A program made the translations under genes and the position numbers. This document shows, piece by piece, positions 29,784 to 52,888 of a stretch of DNA of 60,673 bases. A model generated the notes under the pieces. The model did no database searches and was not told the DNA's origin. It saw only the letters and a program-made list of their open reading frames with translations. Origin of the DNA: Planctomycetota bacterium. Lineage in GTDB: Bacteria; Planctomycetota; Planctomycetia; Pirellulales; UBA7805. The stretch spans positions 76,026 through 136,698 of the forward strand of contig JAIOPX010000077.1 in NCBI GenBank assembly GCA_021413705.1. The letters run 5' to 3'. How positions within the stretch are numbered: position 1 is the stretch's first letter; each line of letters opens with the position of its first letter.

Positions 29784-30226
29784 AAACTCATGCTCCGTAG
29801 TACGATCCGGTCGGCAGCAAGGCGCCGGATTTTTTGATTCCTGTTCCCACGAGCCACGCCGCGACAGACGAGCGGGCGAACAAAAACTGATTATAACTAG
29901 AACGAATCAAACCGCTACTAATTGCCGCAAAACCATGAAAATTCCTTTCCACACCCGTCGTTATCAACCGTATATCCCGAATTTGGGCTTGTTTTGAGGA
30001 GATAGCGCTGCCGTCCCCCGAATCTCAACCCGAAACGGCTGACACCTCGTAACTACCTATAACCACAAGACTTGCGAATCCCCGTGAGCGGAATGGCGCT
30101 AGCCACCGGCCTTCCAAGCAACCGAATTGTCACCAGCCACCCCATTTCACCCCAAGTGCGAAGTAGGAACCGGCGGCTAGCGCCGTGCCGCTCACAAGCC
30201 CTGCTCAGCTTAGAATCAACGGACCC
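29784..30226. other. Intergenic region between divergent genes
   Basis: No coding frame is supported. It must contain promoters for the Pro/Ala-rich gene (left) and the phosphoesterase gene (right). It also holds the REP-like pair at 30084-30195, whose right end is 32 bases from the phosphoesterase ATG. Confidence 0.5.
30084..30195. repeat. REP-like inverted pair, family GTGAGCGG
   Basis: The left arm (30084-30109) is GTGAGCGG + AATGGCGCTAGCCACCGG; the right arm (30170-30195) is the reverse complement of GTGAGCGGCACGGCGCTAGC + CGCCGG. The palindromic core is GGCGCTAGCC. Related units lie at 38924-38950 and 54852-54966. Confidence 0.75.
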
Positions 30227-32227: not shown

Positions 32228-32464
32228 TTACATAAAAGCCGCTAAGACCATTAGCAACGCCAATGCTCCCACACCGACGAACATGCCCCAATAGGTCTGC
32301 CCTAAAAGCGCTCCTAACGCAATGAAGGGACAGACGATCAAAAGTCCGACACCTAGACTGATATTGTGTTTGGCTGCCATTACCCAACCGCCCGCGCTGA
32401 CCGCGATCCAGAACGTGGCCCACAGCATGCCGGCGATCGTGAACTGGAAGCGGGGCTGAGTCAT
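32228..32464 (-). CDS. Small membrane protein
   Basis: A 78-residue protein with an N-terminal RFQFTIAGMLWATFWIAVSA and two or three hydrophobic segments in all, ending in LALLMVLAAFM. The TQPRFQF start resembles the FSLRTLL-type N-terminus of neighbouring genes but the rest is purely membrane-embedded. It starts nine bases after the stop codon of 32474-32848 on the same strand and is probably co-transcribed. Function unknown. Confidence 0.6.
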   Translation of the reverse strand: MTQPRFQFTIAGMLWATFWIAVSAGGWVMAAKHNISLGVGLLIVCPFIALGALLGQTYWGMFVGVGALALLMVLAAFM

Positions 32465-32473
32465 TGCTAAATC

Positions 32474-32848
32474 CTATGGATAGTTGACTGGATCGGGCCG
32501 AAATCCAGCGTCTTGGGCAAAGACAAACTCGATTTCTGGGAATGCTTCCTTGAATTGTCGCACTTCATCATCAGAGAAGGCGTTGCGATCTAAGTAAACT
32601 CCGCCCGTCGTCATGTCTCCTAACCACACTCGATAGAAAGGCAGCGACGGGTCGTTATTGGTAAAGGCCGGCAGGCCGCTTAGCCCCTTATTTCTTTGCT
32701 TGAGGACGGCCCTTAGCCCCTTACGATGGGACACCATTCTGACTTGCCAACCAATCCAAGCAAATCCGAGGGCACAGATTGTCACCAACACGAACAGCGT
32801 TCTCAGGCTGAACCTAAACCAGCGGGGCTTCCGAGGATTCTCTTCCAT
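32474..32848 (-). CDS. FSLRTLL-type single-span membrane protein
   Basis: A 124-residue protein beginning MEENPRKPRWFRFSLRTLFV, followed by a transmembrane helix (VLVTICALGFAWIGW) and an extracytoplasmic domain of about 80 residues (DRNAFSDDEVRQFKEAFPEI, EFVFAQDAGF). The FSLRTLF motif immediately before the helix is shared with genes at 33261, 33839, 34459 and 49867. No enzymatic motif is seen. The MEENP start is also used by the next gene upstream (32980-33192). Confidence 0.65.
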   Translation of the reverse strand: MEENPRKPRWFRFSLRTLFVLVTICALGFAWIGWQVRMVSHRKGLRAVLKQRNKGLSGLPAFTNNDPSLPFYRVWLGDMTTGGVYLDRNAFSDDEVRQFKEAFPEIEFVFAQDAGFRPDPVNYP

Positions 32849-32979
32849 GCCGGCATTCTATGACTAAGTCGATGGGGTTCGATTATCTGGCTGGCACCGG
32901 GAAGTGCATTTCAGTTAGGTGGATGTACGTCAAATGGTAGTGCGGCGTTAGTGTGTCGGTAGCCGGAAGTCGGGCGGGG

Positions 32980-33192
32980 TCATGGGGGGTGCTTGGCGTT
33001 GTTCGGGGTGGCGGGAGCGGGCCTCGCGGGGTGGGAGTGGACGATAGGCGAAGCGGGAACGAACATCATCCCCAATAACAACGCCAACACGACCCCCAAG
33101 AAAACAAATGCAATCCAGTTTGTCGATCTGCGCGAACTGCCGTAAGGCGATAGCCCCGGGTCTTTCGGCGACTTGTACGGATTCTCTTCCAT
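32980..33192 (-). CDS. Small MEENPYKSP membrane protein
   Basis: A 70-residue protein: MEENPYKSPKDPGLSPYGSS, one transmembrane helix (WIAFVFLGVVLALLLGMMFV) and a Pro/Ala/His-rich tail. The NPYKSP/NPYQSP opening is frequent in short planctomycete membrane proteins of unknown role. It shares MEENP and the upstream bases (ATTCTCTTCCATG on the plus strand) with 32474-32848, so the two genes have related 5' ends. Confidence 0.55.
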   Translation of the reverse strand: MEENPYKSPKDPGLSPYGSSRRSTNWIAFVFLGVVLALLLGMMFVPASPIVHSHPARPAPATPNNAKHPP

Positions 33193-33260
33193 GCCCTGAT
33201 TCTACATGGAATGGAATTAACTTTAGGAAATGGCCAACATCCTGACAATGATCAAAGGGG

Positions 33261-33794
33261 TCAGCGAAGGCTGGGCAGCGATCTGCGCAGGCGCGCTTCG
33301 CCCTGGTCGCTGATCTGCGTACCTCCCAGGTACACTCCCCGGAGTTGGGTTAGACCTTTCAAGTGTTCCAGCCCCGCATCCGTGACATAGGCCGCGCTCC
33401 CCAATTCCAGACGTTCCAGTTTGGACAGACCTTTCAGATTTTCCAGGCCGGCGTCCGTGATTTTGGTGTTGAAGAGGTTGAGCCATCGCATTTCCGCCAA
33501 ACACTTCAGATGTTCCAGGTCAGCGTCTGTAACGTCCGTGCCATCGAGATTCACCCGCACAACATTTGAGAAGTAATCAACATCCAGCCACGTTGGTATG
33601 GTCGGCGGTGCATTGGCCACCAGTTGGCCAGATTGATCGACCATAAAGTCGTAGGTCACGAACCCTCCCAGTCGGGTGACGACGCGCACCACCTCCCTCT
33701 GCTGCCGTGCCTTGTACGACCACCAGCCGATCCAGACGGCGATGATCGTCGTGAGGATCAGGATCGTTCTGAGGCGGAATTGGAAGCGGGGCAT
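33261..33794 (-). CDS. FSLRTLL-type membrane LRR protein
   Basis: A 177-residue protein: MPRFQFRLRTILILTTIIAV, a transmembrane helix ending in WIGWW, a linker with QQREVVRVVTRLGGFVTYDF, then three to four 24-residue leucine-rich repeats of the TDAGLEHLKGL-x-L-x-x-L-x-L type. The repeat class (bacterial RNI-like, TDAGL) usually makes protein contacts. The domain should lie outside the cytoplasmic membrane. Divergent from 33839 with only 44 bases between the two start codons. Confidence 0.75.
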   Translation of the reverse strand: MPRFQFRLRTILILTTIIAVWIGWWSYKARQQREVVRVVTRLGGFVTYDFMVDQSGQLVANAPPTIPTWLDVDYFSNVVRVNLDGTDVTDADLEHLKCLAEMRWLNLFNTKITDAGLENLKGLSKLERLELGSAAYVTDAGLEHLKGLTQLRGVYLGGTQISDQGEARLRRSLPSLR

Positions 33795-33838
33795 GGATTG
33801 ATTCTAGCAGTTCCAGCCAGAGCCGCTATAACAACAGC

Positions 33839-34273
33839 ATGACCACCGAACTAATCAAGCCCCGACCGAACCGCCGCTGGTTTCAATTCAGCCTGCGAGC
33901 ACTGCTGATCCTCACGACAATCTGTGCGGTATTGCTAGGGTTGTTGGCTCGCGTGACGTACAAAGGGCAACAGCAATTGGCGGCAATCGAGATGTTGGAA
34001 GCGGCAGGAGCGGAAATGTATTTCGGGCAATTCTCGGTTCGTGAAACGAAGCAACATCCAAATCCCGACTTGTCAATTCGCTTCATTTGGTTCTGGTATG
34101 GTCCAGCAGAAGTCATGTTGCGCAACGCTGCCGGCGACAAAGAATTGGCCGCCCTCAAATCTCTGGGAAAGCTAGAAATTATTTACGTCTCGCGTAAACT
34201 TCCAGGTGAAAAAGATCGACTGAGAAAAGAGTTTCCCGGCTTGCGTGTCGAAGATTGGCCGGATAACTACTGA
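33839..34273 (+). CDS. FSLRTLL-type single-span membrane protein
   Basis: A 144-residue protein. It starts MTTELIKPRPNRRWFQFSLR, has the motif FSLRALLILTT leading a transmembrane helix (ICAVLLGLLARV), then KGQQQLAAIEMLEAAGAEMY, matching the QQR-VxxLxxxGG-V-Y linker of the LRR relatives, but ends in a short alpha/beta domain without LRRs (KELAALKSLGKLEIIYVSRK). It may be an LRR relative reduced to one repeat. Confidence 0.65.
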   Translation: MTTELIKPRPNRRWFQFSLRALLILTTICAVLLGLLARVTYKGQQQLAAIEMLEAAGAEMYFGQFSVRETKQHPNPDLSIRFIWFWYGPAEVMLRNAAGDKELAALKSLGKLEIIYVSRKLPGEKDRLRKEFPGLRVEDWPDNY

Positions 34274-34458
34274 CCCCTCTCCTGTCTTCTTCTTTTTCTG
34301 CCAGCCGGACTATGCTGATCCGTAGCTCAGCATTTCTGCCCCTTTTTCGTGTTTTCGCCCCATCGTGTTTTCGTGATCCCTCTTTGCCCTTCGCGCCCAT
34401 TCTCCCCTGCGCTACAATACCCCGGCATAACTGAAGTTCTTCTCCGAGGGGCTCGTAG

Positions 34459-35250
34459 ATGACGCTCGAAGCACCAGTAGGCTTGTCTCTCGGCCGAGTG
34501 AGATTTCACTGGCGACGGCTGTTGCAATTCCGGCTGCGCACGCTGCTGATCCTCACCACGCTGGCGGCGATCGGCCTGGGTTGGTGGTCGCACACCGCGC
34601 GGCGGCAGCAACGGGCCGTCGCGGCGCTCCGGCAATCGGGAGGCAGGGTCCAGTACTATTTCGAGATGTACCAGATAGGGAATTGCCCCACCTCGGAAAA
34701 CCTGATCTGGCCCATGTGGCTGGTGGATGCCGTAGGGGTGGACTACTTTGCCTGCGTCGCCATGGTGACGATGCCACCCAGCATGGTGAACGACGATCTA
34801 CGGCACTTGGCCGATTTGCCCCAGCTCGAGTGGGTGGACCTGGACAACACGAAAGTCACCGACGCAGGGCTGAAGCTTGTCGCCTGTGCGACCAGCCTGG
34901 AAAGCGTCTCGCTCAATGGAACGCAAATTTCCGATGCCGGGCTAAAACACTTGGAACCCCTTGCTCGCTTGCGGTGTCTTTATCTGAACAAGACGACCGT
35001 CGGTGACCAGAGCTTGGCCATCCTTGCCAACCACAAGAGCATGTTCTGGCTGACACTCAACGGGACGCGCGTGACCGATGCGGGGCTAAAGCACCTTCGC
35101 GAGTTGCCGGATTTGGCAATCTTGGAGGTGACGGACTTGAAGGTGACGGCTCAAGGCGCAGAGAAATTGCAGAAGTCGCATCCGGGTATCTCGATCATCG
35201 GGCGGTCGTTTTTTGATTCCGCGTTGAATCCCGCCAATTCCGATGATTAG
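34459..35250 (+). CDS. FSLRTLL-type membrane LRR protein
   Basis: A 263-residue protein: LQFRLRTLLILTTLAAIGLG at about residues 22-41, a transmembrane helix, then RRQQRAVAALRQSGGRVQYY and about five TDAGLKLV/TDAGLKHL-type leucine-rich repeats (for example LEWVDLDNTKVTDAGLKLVA). It is the largest of the local cluster and the closest relative of 33261-33794. GAGGGG precedes ATG 34459. An upstream spacer repeats TTTTCGTG motifs that also occur at 43360-43400. Confidence 0.75.
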   Translation: MTLEAPVGLSLGRVRFHWRRLLQFRLRTLLILTTLAAIGLGWWSHTARRQQRAVAALRQSGGRVQYYFEMYQIGNCPTSENLIWPMWLVDAVGVDYFACVAMVTMPPSMVNDDLRHLADLPQLEWVDLDNTKVTDAGLKLVACATSLESVSLNGTQISDAGLKHLEPLARLRCLYLNKTTVGDQSLAILANHKSMFWLTLNGTRVTDAGLKHLRELPDLAILEVTDLKVTAQGAEKLQKSHPGISIIGRSFFDSALNPANSDD

Positions 35251-38829: not shown

Positions 38830-38951
38830 GTTGGAGTACAGCCTTCAGGCTGCTTGACTATTTAGTCCCGGCGCGCCAGGAGACTCCAACGGGAGGCTCG
38901 GGTCCAGCAAACGCCCACTCAGGACCGGCGGCTAGCGCCGTGCCGCTCACA
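38830..38951. repeat. REP-like units of two families
   Basis: 38830-38855 is TTGGAGTACAGCCTT + CAGGCTGCTT (GGAG type, same as 31651-31675). 38924-38950 is the reverse complement of a GTGAGCGG-type unit with core GGCGCTAGCC. Between them lies TCCCGGCGCGCCAGGAGACT, related to the arm at 39083-39105. No gene is present. Confidence 0.65.
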
Positions 38952-38965
38952 AAAAACGGTCCGCA

Positions 38966-39105
38966 GTAGGTCCGCCTTGCCGAGGCGGACCTTTTGCTAA
39001 CGCGTAATGCGACAACAACGCGCCAACCCGAGTTCCATCGCCGCCACTTGTACTTGTCCCCAACCCAAAAGGTCCAGTCCGGTCCCGGCGCGCCGGGAGA
39101 CCTAC
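38966..39105. repeat. REP-like inverted pair, family GTAG-GTCC
   Basis: The left arm from 38966 is GTAG + GTCCGCC-TTGCCGA-GGCGGAC, same as at 36297. The right arm (39069-39105) is the reverse complement of GTAG + GTCTCCCGGCGCGCCGGG and GACTGGACC. The TAG in the right head is the stop codon of the cytochrome-like gene on the minus strand. Confidence 0.8.
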
Positions 39106-49866: not shown

Positions 49867-50961
49867 ATGACGTTTGCCGGGCGCTTTCAATTTCGTCTTC
49901 GCACGGTTCTCATCTTCACCGCCTTCATTGCTACCGTCGCTGCTTGGGGCAGCGCGAAATGGCGCGCCGCGGTTCGCGAAGCGGAGGTAGTTGCAAGCCT
50001 TCGAAGCTCGGGTGTTCGCGTTCATTACGAGTATCAGGGCGACTGTTACTACATGAGTCATCGTCAGGAGGATGCAAAAGACGTGCCACCTTGGCTAGTT
50101 CAAAAGGGAGTAAAAAAAGAACTGGTGTCCCATGCGACATGTCTTTGCATTAGTGCAGGACTAAACACTCTTAAGTCTCTTCAAACCTGTGACTTTCTCG
50201 CACTTCCTGAATTGTCTTCCTTAGTGATTCACAATGAGGAAGTCACCGATAGTGACTTGGTGGCCTTGAAATTCATGCCATCCTTACAAAGGCTGCTTCT
50301 CATAGACGCAAAGAACGTAAGGGGTGCGGGTCTTAGAATGCTTACTCGGCCGCAAAGACTACGAGATCTGAATTGCAGCGGAGCCAGCCTAAATGAATCC
50401 GGTATGAAGCAGATATCGCAGTTTGCTAATTTAGATTCTCTGAACATGGACAACCAAACGATCAGCGCAGAGGGAATGAAGGAACTGTCGAGCCTCAAGA
50501 ATTTGAAATCTCTAAGCCTGAATCGCTCGACTATTCACAAAGATGGCTGGCCTTTGGTAAAGAACCTGGAAAAACTTGAGTATTTGAGCTTGAACGGCTC
50601 GCCCGTTACTGAATCAGACCTCGCGTACGTGGCGAGCTTGCCGCGATTGCAATGGCTGGAACTCGGTTACACTAGGGTTGGCGATGTTGCCGCGGAGCAT
50701 CTTACGAAGTGCAGGCGGCTCGAATATCTCGACTTGAGCGCCACCGGAATTACGAACCTGGGACTACGCCGACTGACTTACCTTAAATCGCTGAAGACAC
50801 TCAAGCTCGGCCACATCAAGATCGACGACGAAGGAGCCCGAGAACTCATGGCCCTACCAAGCATCGAACGAATAGATCTTTCCAATGCAGCGATAGTGGG
50901 CAATGCTGGCACTGATCTAAAAAAGGTATTGGGGGATAGGGTCAGTCTCCCTGATTCTTAA
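49867..50961 (+). CDS. FSLRTLL-type membrane LRR protein (distant copy)
   Basis: A 364-residue protein with the same opening as the 33-35 kb cluster: FAGRFQFRLRTVLIFTAFIA, one transmembrane helix, then EAEVVASLRSSGVRVHYEY and about nine leucine-rich repeats (for example LEYLSLNGSPVTESDLAYVA, LQWLELGYTRVGDVAAEHL). GC content is visibly lower than in the 33-35 kb relatives, so it may have a different history. Its 3' end overlaps the convergent gene 50917-51186 by 45 bases. Confidence 0.75.
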   Translation: MTFAGRFQFRLRTVLIFTAFIATVAAWGSAKWRAAVREAEVVASLRSSGVRVHYEYQGDCYYMSHRQEDAKDVPPWLVQKGVKKELVSHATCLCISAGLNTLKSLQTCDFLALPELSSLVIHNEEVTDSDLVALKFMPSLQRLLLIDAKNVRGAGLRMLTRPQRLRDLNCSGASLNESGMKQISQFANLDSLNMDNQTISAEGMKELSSLKNLKSLSLNRSTIHKDGWPLVKNLEKLEYLSLNGSPVTESDLAYVASLPRLQWLELGYTRVGDVAAEHLTKCRRLEYLDLSATGITNLGLRRLTYLKSLKTLKLGHIKIDDEGARELMALPSIERIDLSNAAIVGNAGTDLKKVLGDRVSLPDS

Positions 50962-51616: not shown

Positions 51617-52888
51617 CTACGCGAACAGCTCTTTGATCAACCGGCCGCCGTTGGCGATTTTCATTGGGCGGCCGTTGCGGGCGGTGAAACGGGTGTCGAG
51701 CGAGATGCCGATGCTGTGCAGCACCGAGGCCATCAGGTCTTCGGACGTGTAGGGATCCGTCGTCACTTGCGTGCCGTCTTCGTTGGTGGCGCCTACCGTG
51801 ATGCCGCGTTTGAAGCCGGCGCCGCCGACGACGGCGCTCCAGCTTCTGGCCCAGTGGTCGCGGCCGGCGTTGCCGTTGATCCGCGGCGTGCGGCCGAACT
51901 CACCCATCCAGATGATCGCCGTGGTGTCCAACAAGCCGCGCTGGGCGAGGTCGGCCACCAAGCCACCCATTGCTTTGTCCAGCTCGGGCAGTTTGGTGTT
52001 TTGCAGCGTGGTGAAGTTGCCGCTGTGCGTGTCCCAGCCGCCGAGATCGACTTCGACAAACGGAACTCCCTGCTCCACCAGCCGCCGCGCCATCAGGCAG
52101 CCGCGGCCAAAGTTGGTGTTGCCGTACAGGTCTCGCGTCTGTTGCGACTCCTTGGCGACCTTGAACGCATCCATTTGCTTGCTGGTCATCAGGTCGTACG
52201 TCTTGTCGAGCACCTTGGCGTGCTCGTCGGCCGAACTGCCGCGCTCGGTCTTGATGAATCCACTCTCCAGCGAGGCCAGCAACTGCATCCGCTGATCGAC
52301 GCGCATCGCGTCAATGCCCATCGCCAGGTCTTTGATCTGGCCGTTGGAGTTGACCACGAACGGCGCGAAGGTCATGCCGAGGAAACCAGGGCCGACGCTG
52401 CCGCCGCCGATCGACACGAACGGCGGAATTTCCAGTTCTTTGCGCGACGTGGCTAGTTCATGGGCGACCACGCTGCCGTAGCTGGGATGTTCGACGTTGG
52501 GATTCGGCACATAGCCGGTGTGCATGTAGTAGCGGCCGCGATCGTGATCAGCCTCCCGGGTGCTCATCGAGCGGACGATGCTCAGGTGCTTCATCTGCTT
52601 GGCGACCAGCGGCAGATGCTCGCTGATCTGCATGTCGCCGGTGGTGGCAATCGCCTTGAACGGCCCGCCGTTGGGATTGCCCGGCTTGAGATCCCAGAGG
52701 TCGATCGTGGCCGGTCCGCCACCCATCCACAGCAGGATGGCAGCCTTCTGGTTTTTCTTGAGCGTCTTGGCGTTGGCGGCCAGCGCGTTGGTGAACTGGA
52801 TGGCTGGCAGAGCTAACGCTGAGGCACCCGCCAGATGCTTGACGAAATGCCGCCGGGTCATGCCGGTGGGAGTGTCGAAGAGATTCAT
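51617..52888 (-). CDS. DUF1501 family protein, Tat-exported
   Basis: A 423-residue protein of the planctomycete DUF1501 family, related to alkaline-phosphatase-fold sulfatases. The N-terminus carries a Tat signal (MTRRHFVKHLAGASALALPA). Core motifs: AAILLWMGGGPATIDLWDLK, SMSTREADHDRGRYYMHTGY, GVPFVEVDLGGWDTHSGNF, TAIIWMGEFGRTPRINGNAG. The nearly universal pairing with a DUF1549/DUF1553 gene is seen here: the partner is upstream on the same strand, 84 bases away. The role of the pair is unknown. Confidence 0.92.
   Translation of the reverse strand: MNLFDTPTGMTRRHFVKHLAGASALALPAIQFTNALAANAKTLKKNQKAAILLWMGGGPATIDLWDLKPGNPNGGPFKAIATTGDMQISEHLPLVAKQMKHLSIVRSMSTREADHDRGRYYMHTGYVPNPNVEHPSYGSVVAHELATSRKELEIPPFVSIGGGSVGPGFLGMTFAPFVVNSNGQIKDLAMGIDAMRVDQRMQLLASLESGFIKTERGSSADEHAKVLDKTYDLMTSKQMDAFKVAKESQQTRDLYGNTNFGRGCLMARRLVEQGVPFVEVDLGGWDTHSGNFTTLQNTKLPELDKAMGGLVADLAQRGLLDTTAIIWMGEFGRTPRINGNAGRDHWARSWSAVVGGAGFKRGITVGATNEDGTQVTTDPYTSEDLMASVLHSIGISLDTRFTARNGRPMKIANGGRLIKELFA

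Follow-up and report, generated by a model that had tools for sequence, protein, structure and literature searches.

Five open-reading frames in the window, the 60,673-nucleotide stretch of planctomycete DNA analyzed here, encode proteins that have an N-terminal module, RRxFQF(S/R)LRTLLxxTTxxAxxLGWW, in common and continue into a helical linker. They are best read as members of a paralogous family of single-pass, inner-membrane binding proteins that carry leucine-rich repeats (LRRs) outside the membrane, belongs to one order (probably Pirellulales), and is old with a fast turnover, a reading to which we give a probability of about 0.6. The anchor is an undescribed module, while the LRR part is of a known kind: scans of Pfam and NCBIfam found no curated model covering the anchor, a PDB search found no chain with a credible match to it, and neither a description of it nor the string "FSLRTLL" was found in the open-access literature, a scope that does not allow priority to be claimed.

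All five genes of the original prediction were present, with the motif common to all of them. The gene at 32474-32848 (minus strand), examined in the ORF list, by Pfam scan and by alignment, encodes a short anchored protein of 124 aa (MEENPRKPRWFRFSLRTLFVLVTICALGFAWIGW) in which the Pfam scan found no domain and whose C-terminal region (VxL...FPEIEF) matches that of other short members in alignment. At 33261-33794 (minus strand) lies an anchored LRR protein of 177 aa, with PRFQFRLRTILILTTIIAVWIGWWSYKARQQR and about 3-4 LRRs by Pfam and profile. It is oriented divergently to the gene at 33839-34273 (plus strand), a short anchored protein of 144 aa modeled with AlphaFold2, and the 44-bp gap that had been proposed between the two was confirmed at 33795-33838, with no sigma-70-like promoter match inside it. 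The fourth neighbor, at 34459-35250 (plus strand), is an anchored LRR protein of 263 aa supported by Pfam, AlphaFold2 and a PDB fold search, and the distant fifth member, at 49867-50961 (plus strand), is an anchored LRR protein of 364 aa whose LRRs, by Pfam and profile, form a long and degenerate series. The cluster had been described as holding four genes; it also contains a small multi-TM protein of 78 aa (MTQPRFQFTIAGMLWATFW; 32228-32464, minus strand), a variant of the anchor according to hhalign, which starts 9 nt past the end of 32474-32848, and a 70-aa ORF (MEENPYKSPKDPG...NWIAFVFLGVVLALLLGMMF; 32980-33192, minus strand) with one TM. Position 32228, given as the start of the cluster, is actually the stop codon of the former, previously undescribed neighbor. 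The 70-aa ORF begins with MEENPYKSP, and because the MEENP leader is common to this ORF, to 32474 and to short anchored genes, it suggests a possible second recurring N-terminal signature.

Conservation of the anchor was measured as column frequencies in 72 proteins from the host genome and a congener, numbering the F/Y of FxLR as position 1. On the N-terminal side, R is found at -4 in 77% and at -3 in 88%, Q at 0 in 88% and F/Y at +1 in 99%; the core follows with R/S at +2 (96%), L at +3 (86%), R at +4 (97%), T at +5 (80%) and L at both +6 and +7 (86% each), and the TM with T at +10 (77%), A at +14 (81%) and G/A at +18 (91%). When the stripe of small residues is counted with F as 0, its three positions are +9, +13 and +17; 68 of 72 members have a small residue at each of the last two, and a small-xxx-small pattern occurs within the TM in 69 of 72, compared to a mean of 50 and a maximum of 59 after shuffling. 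Small-xxx-small stripes are a helix-packing feature of TM interfaces, and the TxxxAxxx(G/A) stripe favors packing of this helix, as judged from its residues, with itself or with a partner. The predicted linker, QQRxAVxxLRxxGGxVxY, held as a consensus of the family; among the window genes it fits well only in 33261 and 34459 and loosely in 49867 and 33839, and 32474 is without it.

The host genome is a 6.58-Mb planctomycete MAG of 457 contigs (89% complete, 6% contamination) and the congener a MAG of 520 contigs (5% contamination); with both fragmented and contaminated, the numbers of copies and the absence of orthologues can only be taken as approximate. A profile built from the N-termini of the five window proteins matched 43 places in the host genome at E ≤ 1e-3 (best 4.9e-28), indicating that the motif is shared far beyond chance. 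With a 31-sequence profile of anchor and linker, about 41 matches were found in the host, 63 in the congener and 0-50 copies in other genomes of the order, with 39 of 58 genomes positive in all, which supports a large family. A shorter profile of the anchor gave 56 matches in the host and about 81 in the congener at E ≤ 1e-3. Across 98 sampled Planctomycetota genomes it gave 57 in the host, at most 30 in any other member of the order and 0-3 weak matches per genome outside the order, several of these last being prepilin N-termini. The anchor is thus almost absent from the sampled planctomycetes outside the order. One candidate count scored 23 per genome, so those counts are lower bounds, and one narrow pattern searched in named genomes, [LFH][GA]WWS[YH][KRT]A[RL], was found at 14 loci, all in LakeFargette_0920_ALND_MAG_62_14 (Planctomycetia).

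Orthology was assessed on whole proteins, comparing 34 host members with 40 from the congener, the latter restricted to the stronger matches. Only 5 reciprocal best pairs were recovered, at 46-51% identity; the DNA flanking the genes in the window is 68-78% identical to that of the congener at the nucleotide level. The genes are therefore not invariant single-copy orthologues, an outcome that the original prediction had named as its refutation, and the family is old with fast turnover. Anchors are clustered in the host genome, with 25 pairs within 3 kb against 1.4 expected (p about 1e-22) and 28 of 56 anchors having a neighboring anchor, and the proposed diversification by duplication and divergence agrees with the copy numbers, the few reciprocal pairs and this clustering. 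The four neighbors in the window have their closest relatives elsewhere and none is another's best match, which indicates that this cluster is old and excludes recent local tandem duplication as its origin. In another genus of the order, genes for anchored LRR proteins of ~555 aa, with 28-54% pairwise identity, stand in a tandem array at L238 (G246 C5:110500-124500). Two short stretches of the window, 30165-30212 and 38922-39002, have 30-40-bp matches (89-100%) in several parts of the congener genome and are possible dispersed repeats.

Behind the constant anchor the repeat domain does vary, as had been claimed. Among the five window genes, Pfam found LRRs only in 33261, 34459 and 49867; across host and congener members it found them in 57 of 95, and profile-based repeat counts run from 0 to 12 per member. 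The family consensus, LxLxxTxVTDAGLxHLxxL, has the 24-26-residue repeats, the (I/V)TD motif and the LRR fold of the CC/GL-LRR class; the F-box partner domain, optional for that class, was not found in the family by Pfam scans. The AlphaFold2 model of 34459 (pLDDT 90) has a continuous helix over residues 17-59, comprising TM and linker, and then an LRR horseshoe with a C-cap, and a PDB fold search with it retrieved FBXL2, FBXL17, NLRP1, internalins and RipG4 (E down to 4e-7). In the model of 33839 (pLDDT 87), a TM-linker helix (19-55) leads into a strand/helix mini-solenoid. The earlier description of this protein as having no LRR therefore stands at the Pfam level only, as the alternating strands and helices of the model suggest a mini-LRR, a reading that draws on this pattern and on alignment of the C-cap, since the model had no significant fold match in the PDB. 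The C-terminal consensus is LPxC in short members and LPNCxI in long ones, and a C-cap-like pattern is present in 51 of 74 proteins. Short ORFs at L182, L174 (2805-) and L155 were considered as broken copies, and their downstream frames gave no LRR.

LRRs are not the only domains that the anchor precedes. Members of other genera, 88 in total and almost all within the order, were scanned as well: Pfam assigned LRRs to about 42 of them, ankyrin repeats to 7 and a WD40 propeller to a single one, which comes from G113, a genome further away in the phylum. DUF1559 lies behind the anchor in 1 of the 95 host and congener members. A second family, of small multi-TM proteins with the sequence RFQFT(I/L)xGxLWATFW, numbers about 17 copies in the host genome and aligns with the anchor profile (hhalign probability 89, E 2e-6). 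Because the anchor precedes such unrelated domains, it is a general membrane-anchor module of the lineage and no mark of recognition proteins, and the proposed role in surface recognition or adhesion is not supported in the form in which it was put forward. The objection that the motif might be found equally in unrelated membrane proteins holds in part, within the lineage. Genes of the RFQFT(I/L)xGxLWATFW family adjoin short anchored genes at 32228-32464 of the window and at L184, L056, L161 and L159, and at L239 (G246 C5:461000-478500), in another genus of the order, genes for anchored ankyrin-repeat proteins are arranged in tandem.

The orientation of the proteins was judged from flanking charge and from related proteins. 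The N-terminal flank of the TM is more positive than the C-terminal flank in 54 of 74 proteins and less so in 12, and most LRR proteins of the host genome that lack the anchor, found as homologues by their LRR sequence, have N-termini with the look of a Sec signal peptide or of a lipoprotein signal when judged by eye, indicating that this domain type is normally exported. For these two reasons an N-in/C-out topology is favored, though not proved, and positive residues on both sides of the TM, as in KARQQR, leave it only moderately supported. The opposite arrangement, in which the LRR domain would be an intracellular scaffold, is consistent with the positive KARQQR segment behind the TM and with a 1404-aa LRR protein of the host genome whose N-terminus looks cytoplasmic, but is quite unlikely given the charge bias of the N-flank and the apparent export of most related LRR proteins. 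Five LRR proteins of the host genome (L190, L191, L193, L197 and L206) combine apparent signal peptides with a linker like that of the anchored family (e.g., VVAAWEQAGARVGW), and it is possible that anchor and signal peptide have been exchanged on one ectodomain. In the preferred N-in/C-out reading, the N-terminal tail would stay cytoplasmic, FQFxLRTLL...TTxxAxxLGWW would act as an uncleaved signal anchor, the KARQQREAVAALR linker would prolong the TM helix, and an LRR horseshoe of the GL/CC type, varying in length and closed by a conserved C-cap (LPxCxI), would stand outside the inner membrane, where it could contact other proteins or ligands, with the TM stripe TxxxAxxx(G/A) packing the anchor against its own copy or a shared partner. 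As a catalytic domain is absent, the family should act by binding; the occurrence of the anchor on proteins without a binding domain counts against this explanation.

The anchor is also conserved at the level of codons. Synonymous identity among paralogues peaks at the LRTLL core, where it is 0.55 compared to 0.23 after permuting synonymous codons within genes; between the two genomes the corresponding values are 0.52 and 0.22. The relatedness of the sequences makes the magnitude of the effect uncertain. Segments beside the core have smaller excesses. When fourfold sites are considered, values of 0.68-0.86 are found in the core columns, where about 0.30 would be expected; DUF1559 genes of the host genome have 0.40 in their prepilin core. 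CGG, TTT and CAA exceed their genome share at fixed positions of the anchor, with CGG favored over commoner codons. This conservation covers anchor codons +2 to +6 in 70 genes of the host (G000) and the congener (G001), and other genera show it weakly. Recent gene conversion within a genome is not favored as its cause, as cross-genome values nearly equal those within genomes.

These data bear on what the anchor is for. It might be an ordinary signal anchor with no special role, conserved by the ancestry of the paralogues alone. This agrees with the homology of the paralogues over their full length and with the synonymous identity that is left in the 5′ region and shows shared descent. We consider it rather unlikely: key anchor residues keep 80-97% conservation in proteins that often share less than 50% identity overall, the module appears again in different genera and ahead of other domains, and the small-residue stripe exceeds shuffles. 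Somewhat more doubtful is the idea that FQFSLRTLL is a signal for targeting or assembly peculiar to the lineage, read on many unrelated proteins by one partner such as an insertase, adaptor or membrane scaffold, with LRR proteins as the largest client group. The spread of the module over LRR, ankyrin (7/88), DUF1559, small multi-TM and one WD40 protein points in this direction, as do the conservation of Q, F, R and T beyond what hydrophobicity would account for and the near absence of the module from sampled planctomycetes outside the order, but shared descent of the 5′ segment predicts the same pattern and some of the non-LRR matches are weak. A more speculative and improbable extension would make FQFxLRTLL a lineage-specific membrane plug whose code is read by a dedicated partner, joining LRR, ankyrin, DUF1559 and multi-TM proteins to one assembly; were this true, the synonymous-codon conservation of LRTLL would be a further layer at the nucleic-acid level.

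Two known signal types fit poorly. A Tat signal anchor, RRx(F/L) before a TM, is suggested by RRx(F/L/I) in 46 of 72 core members and, by eye, by the Tat-like TRRHFVKH on the DUF1501-type ORF of the window at 51617-52888, yet we regard it as very unlikely: RRx(F/L/I) is missing from the other 26, window members 33261, 49867 and 32474 among them, the TM has a strong hydrophobicity, and the motif also stands before multi-TM proteins. The invariant RRx(F/L) and moderately hydrophobic h-region of a strict Tat signal are thus not found. A degenerate type IV prepilin signal is scarcely credible, despite a similar outline (RRxFxLxxLL), a weak match to ComGE and the prepilin-type N-termini that are the nearest background matches outside the order, as the hhalign probability is 11% and neither G/A/S at -1 nor E at +5, which define the type IV prepilin, occurs in any of the 72 members. 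A family of paralogous anchored LRR proteins remains the preferred reading.

The 30-residue module heads about 56 proteins in the host and about 81 in the congener, most of them otherwise hypothetical or annotated as bare "LRR protein", so that naming the domain would organize many planctomycete unknowns. The family also offers a bacterial example of membrane LRR proteins that evolve fast and have no kinase. Membership in anti-phage defense was excluded with PADLOC for 47 members, a single weak Csx19 match (E 8e-4) being the only one. In the part of the published account considered here, the GL/CC-LRR class is reported from Rhodopirellula baltica and Gemmata (PMC2244805), and its bacterial, planctomycete proteins share with the present family 24-residue repeats, LxxLxLxxTxVTDxGLxHL, and the (I/V)TD signature, whereas the FQFSLRTLL anchor, the family size and the short members are not described in that part. 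The internalins of Listeria also have an exported LRR horseshoe, and NCBIfam internalin models and PDB internalins were among the matches, but their repeats are of a different class and the matches fall far below curated cut-offs (e.g., 22.6 against 1600 bits), which excludes membership, and no homology is claimed. The DUF1559 prepilin-like proteins of Planctomycetes, with 45 matches in the host genome, likewise form a large paralogous family with an N-terminal RRxFxLxxLL and a TM; unlike them, the anchor is without the prepilin G-1 and E+5, and the ectodomain is different. Plant LRR receptor-like proteins without a kinase resemble the family by analogy only, as single-pass proteins with an exported LRR and many fast-diverging paralogues, but there is no homology, the order of anchor and LRR is reversed, and the LRRs are of another subfamily.
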